Virus record (IMG/VR): IMGVR_UViG_3300048112_000458
Location: 1-25,271 of that record
DNA: 25,271 nt
Reading direction: 5' to 3' (one strand)
DNA from: a virus
The translations under genes and the position numbers were made by a program. The stretch's first letter is position 1; every line of letters begins with the position of its first letter. The notes beneath the pieces were generated by a model that searched no databases, was not told the origin of the DNA, and worked only from the letters and a program-made list of their open reading frames with translations. Positions 8,273 to 20,034 of the stretch are shown piece by piece.

Positions 8273-9664
8273 TTAGTCCTGTTTTCTGATAATACTACGT
8301 AGCTTGTCTGTTCTATCAATAGCCTTTTCAACAATAGCATTTTCACTAAGATTAACTTTATCTGTTACTTCATTTTTTCTAGTTAATTTATCATAAATTG
8401 CACTAGTTTGGTTAGTTGGTGTTGCATCCTCATCATCCTCTAAATCAGTAATTCTTAAACCTGAAATATCAAAAGCCAGATCAACTTTACTTCCAACTCC
8501 ACTACTACTACGTGTTTTCATAAATTGCACCTGATAACGTCCACGCTCACGCATTGCTTGACTAGTAAAGATACCAATCACATTATCTGCTGTTTGGATT
8601 TTACTAAGTCCCCCACTAATATGGCTGTGATCAAATTCAATTTCTTCTACAGCGGCACGGTTCAACTGTGATGCTGTCGCAAATAGCAAGTCGTGTTCAG
8701 TAGCAAAGTTACGTAATTCTTCACTTACAAATTTATCTTTAATAAACAAATCACTTGGCGGTACTTTACGTTGTGCTGGCATCATAAGATCCAAATAATC
8801 TACTACTAATGCATCAATTTTAATATCATTTTTTACTTCATATTCTTTAATATAGCTGTTCAGATCATTTACTGTAATGCCATTTGGAAGTTGTACAATT
8901 TGTAAACTGCCTGCAGTTTTACCTTGCATACGCACTTTTAAATCAACATCATCTACATTCTTAAATACATCCTTTGTATTCATTCCTGTAATCATACTGT
9001 CTAAACGCATACTACATAATTCTTCACTAAGCTCTAAACTTACATAAACAACATTGTGTCCACTTATACTCCAGTTGAGTGCCAAGTTTTGTAAAAATAA
9101 ACTTTTACCACCACCTGATGCCGCCGCAAATATGTTTAGTTCTCCTCGGTTAAATCCACCATACAATTTCTGATCAATAGCTTGCCAACCTGTACTTGTA
9201 CCTCCTCGCTGATTACGCACTCGTTCAATACGTTCAGCTGGGCTCTCCCAATAGTTTGTTCCTAAATGCTTCGCCAATCCTAGCTGTACTGCATCTTTAA
9301 CCATCTTTTCAACAGCACCAAATTCACCTTTTTCAAGCAAGTCTGTACTTTTTAGGATTGCGCCTTCAAGTGCTTTGTGTCTACAAAATTTCTCAAACTC
9401 ATCTACAAACCACTTTTTATGTCTGTCATCAACCTTATCTCCCATGCCTTCTAGTTTTAAACCAGTTGTTGCTTCAATTTGCATTGAATCAGGGAGAGCT
9501 CCATATTGTTCGGCATGAGTTCGGATAAACTCTACACCTTTACGTAACGTTCTGTCAAAATATTCACTGTCAATAATATTATTAACTCGCACAAATAGAT
9601 CTTGATCTTGTGCAAGGAACTCAATAAAAAGTTTCTGTAATTCAAGAGTATAATCTTCAGCCAT
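8273..9664 (-). CDS. 41: Replicative DNA helicase, T4 gp41 (DnaB-type)
   Basis: A 463-residue protein with the RecA-fold of DnaB-family helicases. It has an N-terminal helical domain (1-130), Walker A ASGGGKS (182-188), the catalytic Glu region VYVSLELSEE (207-216), Walker B VVDYLDL (287-293) and the TASQLNR motif around 330-336. Length is close to T4 gp41 (475). It forms the hexameric 5'-3' helicase of the primosome with gp61. Expressed in the minus-strand early module with primase, it also has its own sigma70 promoter overlapping the end of the SGNH-like gene. A loader (gp59) is not visible in this window. Confidence 0.93.
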   Translation of the reverse strand: MAEDYTLELQKLFIEFLAQDQDLFVRVNNIIDSEYFDRTLRKGVEFIRTHAEQYGALPDSMQIEATTGLKLEGMGDKVDDRHKKWFVDEFEKFCRHKALEGAILKSTDLLEKGEFGAVEKMVKDAVQLGLAKHLGTNYWESPAERIERVRNQRGGTSTGWQAIDQKLYGGFNRGELNIFAAASGGGKSLFLQNLALNWSISGHNVVYVSLELSEELCSMRLDSMITGMNTKDVFKNVDDVDLKVRMQGKTAGSLQIVQLPNGITVNDLNSYIKEYEVKNDIKIDALVVDYLDLMMPAQRKVPPSDLFIKDKFVSEELRNFATEHDLLFATASQLNRAAVEEIEFDHSHISGGLSKIQTADNVIGIFTSQAMRERGRYQVQFMKTRSSSGVGSKVDLAFDISGLRITDLEDDEDATPTNQTSAIYDKLTRKNEVTDKVNLSENAIVEKAIDRTDKLRSIIRKQD

Positions 9665-9713: not shown

Positions 9714-10485
9714 TCAGTTTTAATGTAGCGGGTTTAATTACATTATCCCATAACCATTTGTGGCCTTCTTCGTTTGCATGATTACAAGCACATCGCATAT
9801 TGTTTGGTACATTTACATTAGACCATGGATTGTCAAGCAACCAGTAATCACCTAAAATTTGTTCTCCATAATCGTGTACATACTTATATTCAGGATTATA
9901 ACGGGGGTCTCCAAATAATAGTTCAAGAGGATGACTATAAATCCAAAATTTAACTATAGGACAACGCTGTTCTACCATACTAATTATGGCTCGATTACAT
10001 CCAAAGAAATCTAACATTTGGTTATAGGTTAATACATATTCATTTGCCCAAGATGAAAATCTATAGAAAGGTCCGCTTTTCCACATCTTTTCAGTATCAG
10101 TTGTTAGGCAATAAAAAGGTGTCTCAAATTCATTTTCGTAATCATCTTTATCTACAAATCTATGATATATGTCTTTCCACTCTGTTGGTGCAGGTTGATC
10201 TGGATTCAACGTACTAGGTATAGTAACTGTTGCTTCTACATTACGACCTTCAAATAAACACAGGTCCCAAGTTTCATTAGGATGGTCTGCCAAATACGCC
10301 GTAACAGCCCACAGCTGAGCCTGTGGTGTAACACCGCCCTGTGCAATAACAGTAGTATCCCATCCTAATTCAGTTTTAAAATAATCATGATACCTTCCTT
10401 GCATCATGCGCTCTACATTTTTGTCGTCCTTGTGTCGACGACAAGATGCTTCAGAGTGACTTGTTCCTATAATTAAAACTTTCAT
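9703..10485 (-). CDS. SGNH/GDSL-hydrolase-like protein (copy 2), between primase and helicase
   Basis: A 260-residue protein beginning MKVLIIGTSHS with S9 in block I. G50-G51 (AQGGVT) fits block II, FEGRN (78-82, N82) block III, and N235-H236 with EEGH (239-242) block V, where the usual Asp is Asn or absent. All four SGNH signature residues (S, G, N, H) are therefore plausible, with substitution of the Asp. Family members act as esterases or lipases on acyl groups; a substrate is not visible. Its ATG overlaps the primase stop by four bases, so it is co-translated with primase. It is much diverged from the copy at 991-1704. It may be an insertion in the conserved 41-61 order. Confidence 0.6.
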   Translation of the reverse strand: MKVLIIGTSHSEASCRRHKDDKNVERMMQGRYHDYFKTELGWDTTVIAQGGVTPQAQLWAVTAYLADHPNETWDLCLFEGRNVEATVTIPSTLNPDQPAPTEWKDIYHRFVDKDDYENEFETPFYCLTTDTEKMWKSGPFYRFSSWANEYVLTYNQMLDFFGCNRAIISMVEQRCPIVKFWIYSHPLELLFGDPRYNPEYKYVHDYGEQILGDYWLLDNPWSNVNVPNNMRCACNHANEEGHKWLWDNVIKPATLKLIDK

Positions 10486-11498
10486 TTACAATACCTTTGT
10501 GCTAATACTTTTACTTTAGTACTATTATTCACTGCACTATCTAAGATAGTCCTAACAGTAAACAATTGTCCGTACTTAACCTGTGCATCAGCGGCATCTT
10601 TGCATCCATCCCAATCAGGAAAACTGACACTCCATCCTCTTTCTAGAGCAGTATTCACAGCCCTGTATCCTGCTTTGTCAGCATCAGGTAGCAATACTAC
10701 TGTCTTCTGCAAACTATCAATTATGTTAGCTTGATCTTCATTAATATTATTACTGCCTATCGCTACGCCATCAGTAACAATTGCATCCAAAATACCTTCA
10801 GTTACAATAACAATATCTTTATCACTTGTTTGTCTATCCATACCATAAACAAAGTTTTTAGGAGGCTGTTTATTATAATATTTGGGCATTCCTTCTGGAG
10901 GAGTTCCAACCCATCTAGCAGTATATCCAACAACAGTTTCTTTATGAGTAAATGGAATTACAAAACGCTTTGACATCCTAGCTGGTTGTTTGACAGGAGT
11001 ATACATTAGTCTAGGATCTTCTATATTAAATCCACGTTGATGTAAATATTCTGCCGCACTAATCCAATCACTGTCTGGCTCTGGATATTCCATAAAAGGA
11101 ATTGTTCCTTCTGGTAACTCTATCTCTGGCCAGTCTATTACTACTGGACGAGTTCTATTTTGTTTTTTTAATAAAACCTGTGCTAGCTCATCCTGTTGCA
11201 TGAGTTCTAGTTGCAATCTTTGTATGTCACTTTCTTCTGCGCCTAACTGCATCATCAGTTTTTTGAGACGATAGCTTAGGGTTTTTCCAGTTGTCCATCC
11301 AGTAGTAAATCCGCAATTAAAACAATTGTACTGAAATTTTTCATCTGACTCAAAACGAAAACCACCTCTGCGTTTGCTGTCAGGGCGGCTTTCTCCATTA
11401 TGTATACACATAGGACAATTACCAGATGTCCAACCACTAGGGTTAGAACTCCATCCAGCAGGCACTAGTGTCTTGATGTAATCAATAATAAGCGACAT
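10482..11498 (-). CDS. 61: DNA primase, T4 gp61 (DnaG-type zinc and TOPRIM)
   Basis: A 338-residue protein. The zinc-binding residues C28-x2-C31 and C59-x2-C62 flank a Gly/Arg-rich loop. A TOPRIM domain starts at IVTEGILDAI with E234 and includes DADKAG with D272 and D274, the metal-binding carboxylates of DnaG-type primases. Length matches T4 gp61 (342). It makes RNA primers for lagging-strand synthesis with gp41. A sigma70 promoter directly upstream lacks room for a ribosome binding site, so expression may be leaderless. It overlaps the next gene by four bases. Confidence 0.93.
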   Translation of the reverse strand: MSLIIDYIKTLVPAGWSSNPSGWTSGNCPMCIHNGESRPDSKRRGGFRFESDEKFQYNCFNCGFTTGWTTGKTLSYRLKKLMMQLGAEESDIQRLQLELMQQDELAQVLLKKQNRTRPVVIDWPEIELPEGTIPFMEYPEPDSDWISAAEYLHQRGFNIEDPRLMYTPVKQPARMSKRFVIPFTHKETVVGYTARWVGTPPEGMPKYYNKQPPKNFVYGMDRQTSDKDIVIVTEGILDAIVTDGVAIGSNNINEDQANIIDSLQKTVVLLPDADKAGYRAVNTALERGWSVSFPDWDGCKDAADAQVKYGQLFTVRTILDSAVNNSTKVKVLAQRYCK

Positions 11499-12386: not shown

Positions 12387-12761
12387 ATGTTACAAAAATA
12401 CCAAGACTTACTTGAAGAATATCCGTTCTTGACATTAATCAGTTACGGAAACAATGAATACTTAGGAATCATCCAGAACGTAGATGTTCAGGTTGCTAGT
12501 ATGTATGTCTATGACAGATTACAAGAAGTGGATAGAAAGCGTGAGTTTTTAAAATTAGGTGAGGAATGGTGGTGGGAAACAAATCGAATGTTGCCTATTA
12601 ATATTTCGCTACTGCATAGATGGAATTTTCAAGACTGTGTTCAGAGTTTTGTAGTTAAGCAGATGGAAATTATTGCAGGACCAGAAGTAAAACTAAGTAA
12701 TAGTATAACAAAAAGAATTAAACGACGAAGTATTAATTTAGTTACTAAAAAACGTTCATAA
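12387..12761 (+). CDS. Conserved phage hypothetical protein (WWWETNR motif)
   Basis: A 124-residue protein on the plus strand, one of only two genes on that strand here. A conserved-looking core reads GNNEYLGIIQNVD, then REFLKLGEEWWWETNRMLPI with three consecutive Trp at 61-63. The C-terminus is Lys/Arg-rich (ITKRIKRRSINLVTKKRS), suggesting contact with nucleic acid or an acidic partner. I recall this core in T4-like marine phages, without a function. It has no visible ribosome binding site, with a late-type promoter six bases away. Its stop converges with and overlaps the DnaE-like gene by six bases. Confidence 0.6.
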   Translation: MLQKYQDLLEEYPFLTLISYGNNEYLGIIQNVDVQVASMYVYDRLQEVDRKREFLKLGEEWWWETNRMLPINISLLHRWNFQDCVQSFVVKQMEIIAGPEVKLSNSITKRIKRRSINLVTKKRS

Positions 12762-13337
12762 AATTCCTTCTTTAATCATATTCAATTGTAACATAATTGC
12801 CTGAGCATATGCATACGCATGTGCTTTTTTAAAGAAGTACCCTTCTGTTGAATCCTCAGGCTTTATCCAAACTTCATTTAAAATAATATTCCAATCAGAT
12901 TGTACAAGATGCTTTTTGGCTGGACGTATCAAGCCCAACACTGCCGCTAATTTTGGCAAACTATCTGGTTTTAATTTGTTTACAATATTAAAATGCCTAT
13001 GTATGTGAAAACATTTTTTAACAATATTAGGATCTTCTAGCATCGCCCAATCAGTTTCTTGTTGCATTAAATAATCTAACTGTGCTTGTGAATTAATTTT
13101 TTCGTAAAGAGAAACATTTAGAATATCTAATTTAAAATACCCCATATCTTCAGCTTGCTTATAATCAATTGTAGCTAATCCTGTAATAGGATCATCTGGT
13201 ATTTTATGAAAATATACACCAGTATTATGCTTTTTATTTTTCTTAACACCTTCAATCATAGCAGGAGTATTACGAAGTAATCGCAAAATCCTGTCTCGAT
13301 TGGCAACGTCAATATCAATATCGGTAGTAGTAATCAT
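12756..13337 (-). CDS. Miniature DNA polymerase III alpha (C-family) core-like protein
   Basis: A 193-residue protein whose motifs follow the order of bacterial PolIII alpha (DnaE). DIDIDVANRDRIL (6-18) matches the palm PD(F/I)DxDF-xxx-RDxV motif with carboxylates D8 and D10. HNTGVYF (37-43) matches HAAGVVI. TIDYKQAEDMGYFKLDILNV (56-75) matches the block ending KxDFLGL, with D71 at the third catalytic Asp. LIRPAKKHL matches the YRPGP region, and FFKKAHAYAYAQA matches FNKSHAAAYAL. The intervening spans are much shorter than in DnaE (about 1,100 residues). Polymerase activity is not established. The ATG at 13337 forms an ATGA overlap with the preceding gene. It is last in the uvsW operon. Confidence 0.62.
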   Translation of the reverse strand: MITTTDIDIDVANRDRILRLLRNTPAMIEGVKKNKKHNTGVYFHKIPDDPITGLATIDYKQAEDMGYFKLDILNVSLYEKINSQAQLDYLMQQETDWAMLEDPNIVKKCFHIHRHFNIVNKLKPDSLPKLAAVLGLIRPAKKHLVQSDWNIILNEVWIKPEDSTEGYFFKKAHAYAYAQAIMLQLNMIKEGIL

Positions 13338-14008
13338 AGTTCTGCCTCTGATAAAATATCTTGTACCCACGTAAAATCTTGCACTTTACGTTTTGTTCTG
13401 ATGTTCCAATATTCTGGATCAATAAAGTCACTGATCATGTCAAGCTGTTCATTATTCATCTTGTTTAGTAAATGTTCACTTTTACGTGTTCCATAAATTA
13501 CCCAAGGAGAGACTTTACCACTGCATACATGGAACACTGCTAAGTTTGGATTTACTTCTGTAAAATAATTGTTATACGATGTATTATTTTCTGTTGCCCA
13601 TTGTTCCATAAACATAATAGTACGTTCTACAGCTCTATCAACAGTCTCTTCTTTGAGTCGTTGCTTAATATATTTGGTAAGTGTTGTATCACTAGCCCAA
13701 CGATCTATCTTTATTTGGTTGCGTATTAAATAAGTTGCAAAGTCTTTGATATCATCTATTTTTAAATCTATACAATAACCAGCAAATTTTACAAATGCAT
13801 TGTAATATTGACTAGATGCAAAGTCATCAAATGTTTTTTCTTTTTTGCTATTGGTTCCTATTCTATAAAATAGCTGATATATACTAAGTGCAATGCGTAC
13901 ATCTTTGTCATCTTTATTCATATATCTACGTTTTTGCTCGCACATATGTACAGCAATTGTGCTTTCTTTTTTAAATACTTTTTTACAGTATTCACACTTA
14001 AACGTCAT
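13334..14008 (-). CDS. Zinc-finger-containing conserved phage protein
   Basis: A 224-residue protein starting with a zinc-finger-like motif: C5-x2-C8, H21 and C23 (a C2HC arrangement) in a basic context. The rest is a helical and aromatic domain containing SQYYNAFVKFAGYCIDL. GKVSPWVIYGT near 163-173 precedes a final FTWVQDILSEAEL. Similar proteins occur, as I recall, in T4-like marine phages, without an assigned role. The zinc finger suggests nucleic-acid binding. It is joined by ATGA overlaps to both neighbours. The SPWV motif recurs in the previous gene (14005-14469), perhaps an ancient relationship or shared partner. Confidence 0.6.
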   Translation of the reverse strand: MTFKCEYCKKVFKKESTIAVHMCEQKRRYMNKDDKDVRIALSIYQLFYRIGTNSKKEKTFDDFASSQYYNAFVKFAGYCIDLKIDDIKDFATYLIRNQIKIDRWASDTTLTKYIKQRLKEETVDRAVERTIMFMEQWATENNTSYNNYFTEVNPNLAVFHVCSGKVSPWVIYGTRKSEHLLNKMNNEQLDMISDFIDPEYWNIRTKRKVQDFTWVQDILSEAEL

Positions 14009-14579: not shown

Positions 14580-15079
14580 TACCAAAGCTCTCCAATATTA
14601 AGTACTTCAGGTACCTTATTTGATTCTTTAATAAACAAGGCACATGGGGGTTCAGGATCATCATTTAATGGCACACATAAAAAATGTCCAAATTTTAGTT
14701 TTGGTGCATACCATTTAACATCAGTATACACGTTTACAATACTAACGTCAAGATATTGTGGAAGATAACCAGTGAGGGGATTAATTGTAAATGCATTAAA
14801 TCCTCTATCGTTTAAACTCATTAAACTTACTACTTCTGGATCACCTACCATTGGATCACAAATAACCATACTCCAATCTAAGGGTATCCTAATTTGATTT
14901 TCTCCAATTTGTAATACTGCGGCTGGACTATAAAAACTCTCCATAAAAATAAGAGGAATAAAATAATAGTCAACAAATTTTGGATTACTATAATCTAATA
15001 TTGAAAAACGAAGATCTTCTACCTGCTCTGGAATGTCATCTAGTTCGTATGCCACATTTTCTAAAGTTAAAATTTTCAT
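14579..15079 (-). CDS. Conserved phage hypothetical protein
   Basis: A 166-residue alpha/beta protein. The middle contains IRIPLDWSMVICDPMVGDPE and SLMSLNDRGFNAFTINPLTG, with conserved-looking Asp, Trp and Pro. A second half has YTDVKWYAPKLKFGHFLCVPL. I recall similar proteins in T4-like marine phages beside uvsW-type genes, with no function. The ATG at 15079 is chosen because it overlaps the uvsW stop as ATGA. It is the second gene of the uvsW operon. Confidence 0.6.
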   Translation of the reverse strand: MKILTLENVAYELDDIPEQVEDLRFSILDYSNPKFVDYYFIPLIFMESFYSPAAVLQIGENQIRIPLDWSMVICDPMVGDPEVVSLMSLNDRGFNAFTINPLTGYLPQYLDVSIVNVYTDVKWYAPKLKFGHFLCVPLNDDPEPPCALFIKESNKVPEVLNIGELW

Positions 15080-16530
15080 AACCAATCTACTTTCTCTAAT
15101 GTGAACGGATAATTAGCATCTTTGTAGAATTTTTTTCTTTCTGTTAGATGCTTCTTACTGTATTTTGCAGTACTGGCAATGTCCCATATTTCTACATGGT
15201 CCTTGTCAGCTGCCTTTCTTACTCCTCGACCAATACTTTGGATCACTCTGACAAAAGACTTGCCAGGCTCCAAAAGTACAAGATTAAATATACGAGGTAT
15301 ATTAATACCAACAGCCGCAACACCGTATGTTGCAATCGTGATATTGTTATTAGTTTCATTAATTTCGTCATATGCGTCTTTTCTATCGGTACTCTTCATG
15401 GCACCTTTTACAAATTTACTATCAGGAATATTACTCTGCAATAATTCTCCTGCCTTAATCCTATCAACTAATACAAGTGTATTTCCACTTTGACTCAAAC
15501 GCAAAATCATTTCACTTATATAATCCATACGATTTTGGTCAGTTGTTAAATACGACAATTCACTCTGGTAATTGCTATATTCACTAACCTCTTTGAGCTG
15601 TACAATGTTAACATGACAATTACTTAACACGCCCATGTCTTGTAGTTCACTAGCGGCTAACTTGTTAACTACTTCTCCCAGACATGCCTGTAGGCTTGTT
15701 TTTGAATGATCTTCTTTAGGAATGGTTCCAGTCAACCCCCAACGTAAAGGAATGTGTGCAAACTCTTTTGTTAGCATTTCTTTCAATACGTCAGCCTTAG
15801 CTTGGTGTACTTCGTCAACCATAACACATACAACATCTTCAGCAAAGTCTTGTAGGCTTAATTCACTATCGCCTTCGCGATACCTTTTCTTAATACTATT
15901 AAGACTTTGCCATGTGCAGATTGTATGTGTTTTTCCTAATTCTTTTTTATCCCCATAGTATACTCCAACGTCTAAACCTAGATTAACATAATCATCATAT
16001 GTTTGTCTAACTAGATCTTTGTTAGGAACAATTACTATTGATCTACCATATTGCTCTACATTGTAACTTAGTGCCGCTGTAATTAATGTTTTACCAGCAC
16101 CTGTTGCAATTTCTTGCAAACATTGCGGAGTTTCTAAAAACTTGTTAACAATGTCAATTTGGTAGTCACGTAACGTTACTGGCTCACCTTCTACTGGATG
16201 ACCTTTGGGCCAGTTTTTATGTTGAAATGTGGTCTCATCTACCTTTTCAAAAGAGAAGGTTTGATGTTGTGATCGCCTATCATCAATTTGTATTTGGTAT
16301 CCATTGTCCATTACTATGGGCAAAATTCTATCAAGCAAATTAGTATATGTTACTCCGCCAACTGTAAAAAAGCTCACACATCCATCCCATCTACCTAGCT
16401 TATATGCTGGTACGTGATAGGCATAAGGCATGAAAAATTTAAGCTCTTTCTCACACTTTTTTCTAGTGTTAAGATCTAAGCCTTCAATCTTACAGTTAAC
16501 TTCGTCTTTAAGGATAATTGTACAGTTCAT
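15076..16530 (-). CDS. uvsW: UvsW helicase (SF2, recombination and fork remodelling)
   Basis: A 484-residue SF2 helicase. An N-terminal DNA-binding region (1-110) has YKLGRWDGCVSFF at 43-55, as in T4 UvsW. Motif I ATGAGKT is at 142-148, the Walker B DEVH at 239-242, motif III GLTGT follows, and motif VI QSIGRGVRKA lies near the C-terminus. Length is close to T4 UvsW (about 500). It unwinds R-loops and branched DNA, turning origin-dependent into recombination-dependent replication. A near-consensus sigma70 promoter sits six bases before the ATG, giving leaderless expression with no ribosome binding site. In T4, uvsW is late-expressed, so early control here would differ. Confidence 0.93.
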   Translation of the reverse strand: MNCTIILKDEVNCKIEGLDLNTRKKCEKELKFFMPYAYHVPAYKLGRWDGCVSFFTVGGVTYTNLLDRILPIVMDNGYQIQIDDRRSQHQTFSFEKVDETTFQHKNWPKGHPVEGEPVTLRDYQIDIVNKFLETPQCLQEIATGAGKTLITAALSYNVEQYGRSIVIVPNKDLVRQTYDDYVNLGLDVGVYYGDKKELGKTHTICTWQSLNSIKKRYREGDSELSLQDFAEDVVCVMVDEVHQAKADVLKEMLTKEFAHIPLRWGLTGTIPKEDHSKTSLQACLGEVVNKLAASELQDMGVLSNCHVNIVQLKEVSEYSNYQSELSYLTTDQNRMDYISEMILRLSQSGNTLVLVDRIKAGELLQSNIPDSKFVKGAMKSTDRKDAYDEINETNNNITIATYGVAAVGINIPRIFNLVLLEPGKSFVRVIQSIGRGVRKAADKDHVEIWDIASTAKYSKKHLTERKKFYKDANYPFTLEKVDWL

Positions 16531-16629: not shown

Positions 16630-17022
16630 ATGACTAAAATTGTTCATAAGCATATCATTCTTCGTATAGAAGCAAAATCACCACCAAATGAAAGTGAATT
16701 GCGAGAATGGATGGAAGGCTTAGTTAGCAAAATTGGTATGAAACTTTTAGCTGGTCCTATAAGTGCTGATATTACTACAATAGAAGGCAATATGGGTCCT
16801 ACGTGTGTTTGTGTTATTGAGACATCTCATATGGCATGTCATGTATGGAATGAACCAGATCCTGCTCTTATTCAACTTGACGTATATACTTGTGGTCCTT
16901 TTAATCCTGATGATGTTTTAGAACATATTGCGGTTTGGGATCCAGTAAAGGTAGAGTACAAGTATTTAGATAGAGAGCATGGACTTCATACTATTGGAGG
17001 AAGTGTACCTACAAAAGCGTAG
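16630..17022 (+). CDS. speD: S-adenosylmethionine decarboxylase-like proenzyme (SpeD family)
   Basis: A 130-residue protein of the short prokaryotic AdoMetDC class, which makes decarboxylated AdoMet for spermidine. The core ETSHMACHVW puts S66 at the self-cleaving, pyruvoyl-forming serine and H71 five residues on. C88 (DVYTCG) is the catalytic Cys; T. maritima SpeD has S63, H68 and C83. The residue before the serine is Thr65, where the classical enzyme has Glu (ESH). Phage relatives, from memory, share this change. The +20 to +22 spacing to Cys is retained. It has its own late-type promoter and ribosome binding site. It may raise polyamine for packaging of phage DNA; this is inference. Confidence 0.82.
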   Translation: MTKIVHKHIILRIEAKSPPNESELREWMEGLVSKIGMKLLAGPISADITTIEGNMGPTCVCVIETSHMACHVWNEPDPALIQLDVYTCGPFNPDDVLEHIAVWDPVKVEYKYLDREHGLHTIGGSVPTKA

Positions 17023-18831: not shown

Positions 18832-19522
18832 TAAATTTTACTCTATTGAGCATTGTTTCTTTGCAACCAGTGTACTTACTATTTTCATGTTTGTTAACTG
18901 TACCCACAATATTGATAGTTTTATCTTTAATAATATCACTGATGTCGGGTTGATCTCTCCACCAAAACTTAATTACATCACGACCTGCATATACAGTAGT
19001 AATCATATAAACACTACTCGTCTGGATATATTTTACATCCAAAACTTCTACAGATAACTTGTAGCGTTCTCCTTTGTTACCAAAATAGTTACTACTATGT
19101 TTTAGCTGAGCCATTTTATCGCCAATTTTCTCACGTTGTTTGTCAACTGTCAAACTATGAGGTAGGCTGGCAATAATACTAATAAGAAAGTTTTCTGAGA
19201 CATTCTCATCACGAAAGCATTTAATGATATTTTCATCAAAGCTACTTACACTGCCAGCCATTTTTTTAAGCATCATTTTACTGTTAAATGTATCAATCAA
19301 ATCAGTGGCTGATTTGATTGTTTCTGGATTAAACGGCTCACTGGAATTAAGACGAGCCTTTACCGCTGTCTTATTGTCTTTAATTTCTTTGACAATATTT
19401 CCGTCATCATCATATTCAGTATGTCCTGCACCACTACGTACAAAACCTTGGTCTTCATAGACGATGATTGCCGCTGATACTACATCAACAAGTTCATAAG
19501 TTGCTTTTACTTTAGTGGCCAT
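18818..19522 (-). CDS. OB-fold-like nucleic-acid-binding protein, putative
   Basis: A 234-residue protein. The N-terminal half is mixed, with repeated Asp/Lys segments. The C-terminal 90 residues (YKLSVEVLDVKYIQTSSVYM, then INIVGTVNKHENSKYTGCKE and TMLNRVKF) form a strand pattern like OB-fold domains seen in phage single-strand-binding or replication proteins. The GTVKKHxx-x-GxKxTxLxRVK-like ending is the main support. The ATG at 19522 forms TAATG with the hydrolase stop, so a further upstream start is not used. Function in DNA metabolism is inferred. Confidence 0.5.
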   Translation of the reverse strand: MATKVKATYELVDVVSAAIIVYEDQGFVRSGAGHTEYDDDGNIVKEIKDNKTAVKARLNSSEPFNPETIKSATDLIDTFNSKMMLKKMAGSVSSFDENIIKCFRDENVSENFLISIIASLPHSLTVDKQREKIGDKMAQLKHSSNYFGNKGERYKLSVEVLDVKYIQTSSVYMITTVYAGRDVIKFWWRDQPDISDIIKDKTINIVGTVNKHENSKYTGCKETMLNRVKFNAGP

Positions 19523-20034
19523 TAGGCTGGTTCCTTTACCATTTCCTGAGCTTGATCCCACAACGGAGAATCAGTTGCTCTTGTCATTACTTCCAGAAGT
19601 TGTGCTTTTTCCCGAAGGAAAACTCTAGCAAAACTAGGATCATTCTGCACTATATCCTCGCTGTTGTCAATCAAATCAGCCAATTTAATTTCCTGTGCTT
19701 CTGGACTTGCAAAGCTCAACCGACGAGCATCGATTGCCTTACGAGTTGCACGATTTCCATCTTCTGGCTTACTTGTATCAGTAAGTTCAAGAACAAACTT
19801 AAACACAACAGGACCGAATTCGTCAAGGATTTGAGGACCGGTTACTGCGGTATCTTCAATAACATCGTGCAACCATGCCGCCGCAATCATCTGCGGAGAA
19901 CCGCCAACTTCAGTGACCATGTCAGCAACACGAGCAGGGTGTACAATGTAATCATCTCCACTGTACTTTCTTTTTTGTCCTACCGCGGCGTGTGCCGCAG
20001 TAGCAAAAACTCTAGCTTTTTCAACAATATCCAT
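19522..20034 (-). CDS. HD-domain hydrolase, RelA/SpoT/MESH1-type (putative (p)ppGpp hydrolase)
   Basis: A 170-residue protein with the HD-hydrolase signature of the SpoT/MESH1 group. RKYSGDDYIVHP (22-33) carries R22 and H32. WLHDVIEDT (54-62) carries H56-D57 and E60-D61. IKLADLIDN (116-124) carries D120 and N124. These residues match the Mn-binding and guanine-recognising sites of small alarmone hydrolases. No synthetase domain is present, so hydrolysis only. Such an enzyme could lower host (p)ppGpp and relieve the stringent response; this is inference. The region is visibly richer in G+C than its neighbours, consistent with later acquisition. A ribosome binding site AAGGAG precedes the ATG. 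Confidence 0.75.
   Translation of the reverse strand: MDIVEKARVFATAAHAAVGQKRKYSGDDYIVHPARVADMVTEVGGSPQMIAAAWLHDVIEDTAVTGPQILDEFGPVVFKFVLELTDTSKPEDGNRATRKAIDARRLSFASPEAQEIKLADLIDNSEDIVQNDPSFARVFLREKAQLLEVMTRATDSPLWDQAQEMVKEPA

Follow-up and report, generated by a model that had tools for sequence, protein, structure and literature searches.

The window, i.e., the entire stretch of viral DNA analysed here, is a fragment of 25,271 bases. Its setting is that of a T4-like jumbo phage: according to Pfam and PHROG, UvsW, UvsX/RecA, gp32, a primase and gp41 are all present. At positions 12756-13337 of the minus strand lies an intact open reading frame (ORF) which starts with ATG and encodes 193 aa plus a stop. 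A sequence-only reading of this DNA had placed the gene in the uvsW operon; it belongs to a same-strand run downstream of uvsW. It has a 4-bp start/stop overlap with its upstream neighbour and shares its orientation with uvsW, three small genes and those for primase and helicase. The relevant features are:

8273-9664, minus strand: gp41/DnaB-like replicative helicase (phrog_19 4e-67, DnaB_C 1.2e-19)
10482-11498, minus strand: gp61-like DNA primase (phrog_47 1.8e-29, Toprim_2)
12387-12761, plus strand: small gene, 124 aa, tail-to-tail with the C-half gene (PHROG match, phrog_11637)
12756-13337, minus strand: C-terminal half (C-half) of a split DnaE-type (C-family) polymerase palm, 193 aa (ORF and translation, phrog_11778, hhalign, AlphaFold2 plus VIA-align)
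12819-12821, minus strand: codon H173, equivalent to the DnaE steric-gate His, E. coli H760
12915-12926, minus strand: codons R138-P139-A140-K141, region of the DnaE RPG motif (E. coli R639-P640)
13125-13133, minus strand: codons K69-L70-D71, equivalent to E. coli K553 and the catalytic D555 (hhalign)
13308-13322, minus strand: codons D6-I7-D8-I9-D10, equivalent to E. coli D401/D403 (catalytic) and D405
13334-14008, minus strand: upstream gene, 224 aa, with an N-terminal C2H2-like zinc finger (below the Pfam cut-off), phrog_11058; overlaps the start of the C-half gene by 4 bp
15076-16530, minus strand: UvsW-like helicase (Pfam ResIII 9e-20, phrog_16 2e-72)

This arrangement is conserved. The block reads uvsX ... 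uvsW ... zinc-finger protein, C-half, inverted small gene ... primase, helicase, and the neighbours recur at 79 to 94 of 97 C-half loci. The zinc-finger neighbour (phrog_11058) is present at 92 of the 97, a homologue of the phrog_11637 gene at 94, usually right after the C-half gene and on the opposite strand. The strict retention of an inverted gene inside a same-strand block is unusual. In one related record (G004, the record of locus L138) uvsW is found in two pieces about 1.3 kb apart (50679-53430; query residues 5-249 and 236-483), which suggests an intron or an insert. Beside uvsW of the window, on the opposite strand (16630-17022, plus), an S-adenosylmethionine decarboxylase is encoded (PF02675, 9e-12; TIGR03330 below cut-off), a possible indication of polyamine synthesis by the phage. 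The HD_4 protein at 19522-20034 (minus) resembles RelA/SpoT in its hydrolase portion (spoT_relA 6.7e-21, which is under the cut-off for full length) and is possibly a small alarmone (ppGpp) hydrolase. A B-family polymerase was not found among the ORFs of the 25-kb fragment scanned with Pfam.

The kinship of the 193-aa protein with the alpha subunit of DNA polymerase III (Pol III alpha, DnaE) is visible in profiles. With Pfam the window protein yields a sub-threshold DUF only, and a PDB search with the single sequence gave no match; profiles alone succeeded. PHROG 11778, named 'DNA polymerase', matches at 8.9e-62 over 188 residues. When a 13-sequence family profile is compared with the PDB at E<=10, exclusively Pol III alpha chains are retrieved, seven in number. 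These matches are individually weak (best E 0.084), and they keep the motif order, i.e., DIDID, palm strand and RP region, FKKaHA helix. An hhalign comparison of the C-half family (87 relatives) with a nine-sequence DnaE alignment places residues 36-141 on E. coli 510-642. In the version of this comparison that was run with controls, the probability is 96% and the score 76; 30 column-shuffled controls score at most 26. A profile match to Pol III alpha had been set beforehand as a check, and the one obtained is far above chance. The DnaE motifs, which the sequence-only reading had recognized in their proper order, are located at residues 6 (DIDID), 37 (HNTGV), 67 (YFKLDILNV), 136 (LIRPAKKHL) and 169 (FKKAHAYAYA). 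The DIDID end was placed by local and structural alignments; the global hhalign misplaced it. In the protein of a relative, phage RAS14, Pfam recognizes the Pol III finger domain PF17657 above its cut-off.

IMG/VR contains at least 554 matches to the C-half. Among genome contigs, a scan picked up only nine relatives; they belong to metagenome-assembled genomes from several phyla and are most likely phage contigs that were binned along. When viral sequences were scanned with a full-length phage DnaE as query, close DnaEs alone were retrieved.

In E. coli DnaE the metal ligands are D401, D403 and D555; DnaE typically has a further Asp, D405, in place of which PolC carries Asn (PMC3919608). A check of the E. 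coli numbering identifies D401 and D403 as the first two Asp of PDFDVDF. Thus, the catalytic set of the phage protein is D6, D8 and D71, and D10 corresponds to D405. It had been claimed that all three catalytic Asp are kept; this holds, although the residues are not D8, D10 and D71 as originally assigned. D6, D8, D10 and D71 are invariant in 87 of 87 C-half sequences, and the same is true for K69 and for R138, P139 and K141. H173 occurs in 86 of the 87, the remaining sequence having a gap; its E. coli counterpart H760 is the steric gate (PMC8485763). In the profile alignment the DIDID region pairs with MPDIDIDF of M. tuberculosis DnaE1, and the steric-gate regions align as FKKsHAi / FNKSHSa. 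The median pairwise dN/dS of the C-half is 0.08 (44 pairs, non-independent): the gene is under purifying selection. The suggestion that the protein might be a structural decoy is rejected in view of the invariant catalytic residues and a dN/dS near 0.08.

A side issue concerns the C-half gene of Atu_ph07 (NC_042013.1; locus L009, 7986-8558). Its RefSeq start (L009 8067) is downstream of DIDID, and without a stop the reading frame extends back to an upstream ATG, so that DIDID is included. Through this mis-start, two of the catalytic Asp seem to be absent from the annotated protein.

An AlphaFold2 model of the C-half, calculated with 70 sequences, has a mean pLDDT of 91.2. The best 12 PDB matches of this model in Foldseek are all Pol III alpha or PolC. 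Using VIA-align, the modelled residues 1-193 align with PolC 968-1297 (Z 10.3, 191 residues, 3.4 A), with Taq Pol III alpha 458-840 (Z 10.3) and with E. coli alpha 397-783 (Z 8.7), scores which pertain to a predicted structure. C-family polymerases occupy the first 14 rows (Z 6.4 to 10.3), and the best unrelated chain follows at Z 3.7. The fold, too, had been proposed as a check, and the model aligns to PolC, Taq and E. coli alpha over 191 of 193 residues. The positions of the Asp residues in the model follow from its alignment to the PolC and Taq structures. E. coli 397-783 comprises 387 residues compared to 193 in the C-half, i.e., about half has been cut out. The motif matches skip E. coli ~415-505 and ~645-735, which we take to be thumb and fingers, respectively. 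Accordingly, the C-half has no thumb and lacks most of the fingers. A PHP domain is not matched by Pfam in the C-half or in its partner described below. The protein is indeed too short for a complete C-family polymerase, as had been stated: GS motif, thumb, most of the fingers and PHP are missing.

The palm of DnaE also needs a GS motif, which is located before the Asp pair. This motif (GRGSS) is not part of the C-half polypeptide; it resides on a separate protein, the N-half. The notion of a self-contained minimal enzyme had therefore to be abandoned, because the C-half is only one half of a split palm with the GS motif on a second protein. The N-half was traced in nine complete relatives, Phosso, Atu_ph07, Paride, RaK2, CBB, Vibrio 2.275.O, SCTP-2, RAS14 and XacN1. 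In nine out of nine PF07733 is above cut-off (profile positions ~13-98), with one N-half each. The N-half has about 175 residues, matches PHROG 11127 'DNA polymerase' and has the C-terminal end GxGRGSSxxSYxLxLIGxHxVDSxxYxLDxxEFLx-stop. GRGS is invariant in 88 of 88 N-half sequences. By hhalign residues 104-176 correspond to DnaE 320-392, far above shuffled controls. Modelled with a pLDDT of 93.1, the N-half can be superposed on E. coli 278-393; in Taq and PolC the alignment runs up to residues 455 and 964-965, respectively. In the list of structural matches for this model every row is a C-family polymerase; N-half residues 1-81 are outside all matches listed. Inside the 25-kb window the N-half has no match.

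How do the two halves relate to each other? In E. coli, Taq and PolC, respectively, the N-half ends at 393, 455 and 964-965 and the C-half begins at 397, 458 and 968. Since these end points lie on the same chains, the halves abut without overlap at a seam of few residues; in DnaE numbering it is three to four residues from the end of the N-half to the start of the C-half. The lengths of the proteins can be set beside this. In 79 of 88 N proteins the chain ends 33 residues after GRGS begins, the number of residues ahead of DIDID is most often 5 (47 of 87 C proteins), and the stretch from GRGS to the Asp motif in E. coli amounts to 40 residues. In one single-chain phage DnaE both profiles match in order, the N profile at 381-416 and the C profile from 425 onward. 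Adjacent or fused halves were found neither among 97 C-half and 90 N-half loci nor in a later set; wherever a single ORF matched both halves, it was a full-length phage DnaE.

The two genes travel together. A tblastn search of 50,697 phage records gave 63 records for the C-half and 60 for the N-half (67 when a different N query was used), and 59 records are shared among the best 60 of the 63 C-half records and the 60 N-half records listed. Among these records the exception with a C-half only is a record of 109 kb; the lone unmatched N-half record may be among the three C-half records beyond the best 60. From 12 long IMG/VR records seven have both halves, three the C-half only and two the N-half only. 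Both N-only records, one of them G003, are also devoid of uvsW and hence may be incomplete; in G003 the whole uvsW block is probably missing. The co-occurrence partly reflects the shared ancestry of one phage group. A B-family polymerase exists in all nine complete relatives, in agreement with the earlier assignment to T4-like phages which use such an enzyme. In RaK2, Paride and Atu_ph07 the N-half gene precedes that of the gp44 clamp loader by a few genes. N-half and C-half genes are separated by tens to hundreds of kb (in RaK2 they are at 148852-149370 and 115150-115791, in Phosso at 97210-97743 and 321328-321903, respectively); thus an operon argument for a complex is not available.

Taken together, the window protein is probably the C-terminal half of a DnaE-type palm which T4-like jumbo phages encode in two pieces, and which is predicted to pair with the N-half in a minimal, dNTP-using polymerase. 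The C-half would contribute D6, D8 and D71, the three Asp that bind metal, together with the K-x-D strand, the RP-x-K motif and the helix bearing the steric gate; the N-half would add GRGSS, which would hold the dNTP triphosphate. If the halves dock like their counterparts in a one-chain DnaE, the rebuilt site would combine GRGSS with three Asp that bind two metals and a His that shuts out ribose. The product would be a minimal palm devoid of PHP, thumb, most of the fingers, HhH and clamp-binding parts. Use of dNTPs is to be expected because the steric gate is kept. As there is no thumb and no clamp-binding motif and most of the fingers are gone, synthesis is expected to be distributive and short, e.g., primer extension or gap filling. 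Since thumb and most of the fingers are missing, templated synthesis as such is uncertain. The enzyme may work beside the B-family replicase in recombination-dependent replication. What the data show are homology, fold, catalytic residues, complementary halves, their co-occurrence and purifying selection; physical association, activity, template dependence and role of the split polymerase we infer.

This very absence of the parts which hold duplex and template, combined with invariant active-site residues in both halves, would also fit a heterodimer with an intact nucleotidyltransferase site which operates without a template and adds one or a few nucleotides to the end of a DNA, to a protein or to a small molecule. 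We consider this unlikely, though it ranks first among the alternatives. The steric-gate His and the O-helix motif, which serve dNTP selection in templated synthesis (PMC8485763), are kept, and both genes are located among replication genes. The chances are smaller still for a non-catalytic part of the replisome, or a remnant with a DnaE fold, acting for example as an accessory factor of the B-family polymerase. Much of a polymerase is missing, and with a B-family replicase in all nine relatives examined a second polymerase is not obviously needed. However, a scaffold needs neither an Asp triad conserved in 87 of 87 sequences nor GRGS in 88 of 88, nor a steric-gate His retained wherever the position is spanned, nor a dN/dS near 0.08.

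Last in rank, and quite improbable, is the view that each half acts alone or with other partners and that the match to adjacent parts of DnaE is mere history. The genes are far apart, never adjacent or fused in the loci searched, which speaks for this view. But neither half has a complete active site, the C-half being without a GS motif and the N-half without an Asp triad. Moreover, they co-occur in 59 of 60 records listed and abut exactly in DnaE coordinates. Whether the predicted pair of half-palms, about 180 residues each, without a thumb and with almost no fingers, indeed constitutes an active DNA polymerase, i.e., a dedicated second polymerase beside the B-family replicase, we judge to be evenly balanced. 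If active, it would be the smallest C-family polymerase known to us.

An active enzyme formed by the two halves would reveal how small a portion of a replicative polymerase catalysis requires, and that a palm divided between the GS motif and the catalytic Asp can still function. An exact seam and a residue map make this testable with two small proteins. The finding also raises the puzzle why many jumbo phages which possess their own B-family replicase keep the core of a bacterial-type polymerase.

Compared to bacterial DnaE (E. coli, Taq, M. tuberculosis) the likeness comprises the palm fold, the Asp triad, D405, K553, the RP motif and the steric-gate His, all in order. The difference is that the phage palm is made of two polypeptides and lacks thumb, most of the fingers, PHP, HhH, clamp-binding, OB and C-terminal domains. 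PolC from G. kaustophilus (3f2b) is the best structural match with Z 10.3 over 191 residues. However, PolC carries Asn at the D405 position and the phage protein Asp; thus the latter is DnaE-like, and a PolC-like origin of the C-half is disfavoured.

Parts of this enzyme have been reported before. In the CBB paper a truncated Pol III alpha of 172 aa is described (PMC5259590), by its size probably an N-half as well; the Pol III alpha subunit of the Atu_ph07 paper (PMC6102473) is the N-half according to its locus tag (gp316). The passages on split Pol III alpha in Iyer et al. (2021; PMC7824862) describe, for jumbo phages of group 2.2, a minimal Pol III alpha that accompanies the B-family enzyme and comes as two proteins, an N-terminal one that binds NTP and a C-terminal one that binds Mg and template, with the genes far apart. 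According to these passages the halves likely reconstitute the enzyme, and the split enzyme is proposed to model the ancestral Pol III core. A biochemical test of a split Pol III alpha was not found in the literature searched; further papers could exist. C-half and N-half match PHROG 11778 and 11127, respectively, and the library names are silent on their being halves of one enzyme. With respect to the split Pol III alpha as portrayed in those passages of Iyer et al., the window encodes an orthologue of the C-terminal piece; the same passages give neither a seam nor a residue mapping, both of which were computed here. Thus, the split family was already known and the window adds a member to it; new are the exact seam, the folds of both halves, the steric gate and the near-perfect co-occurrence.
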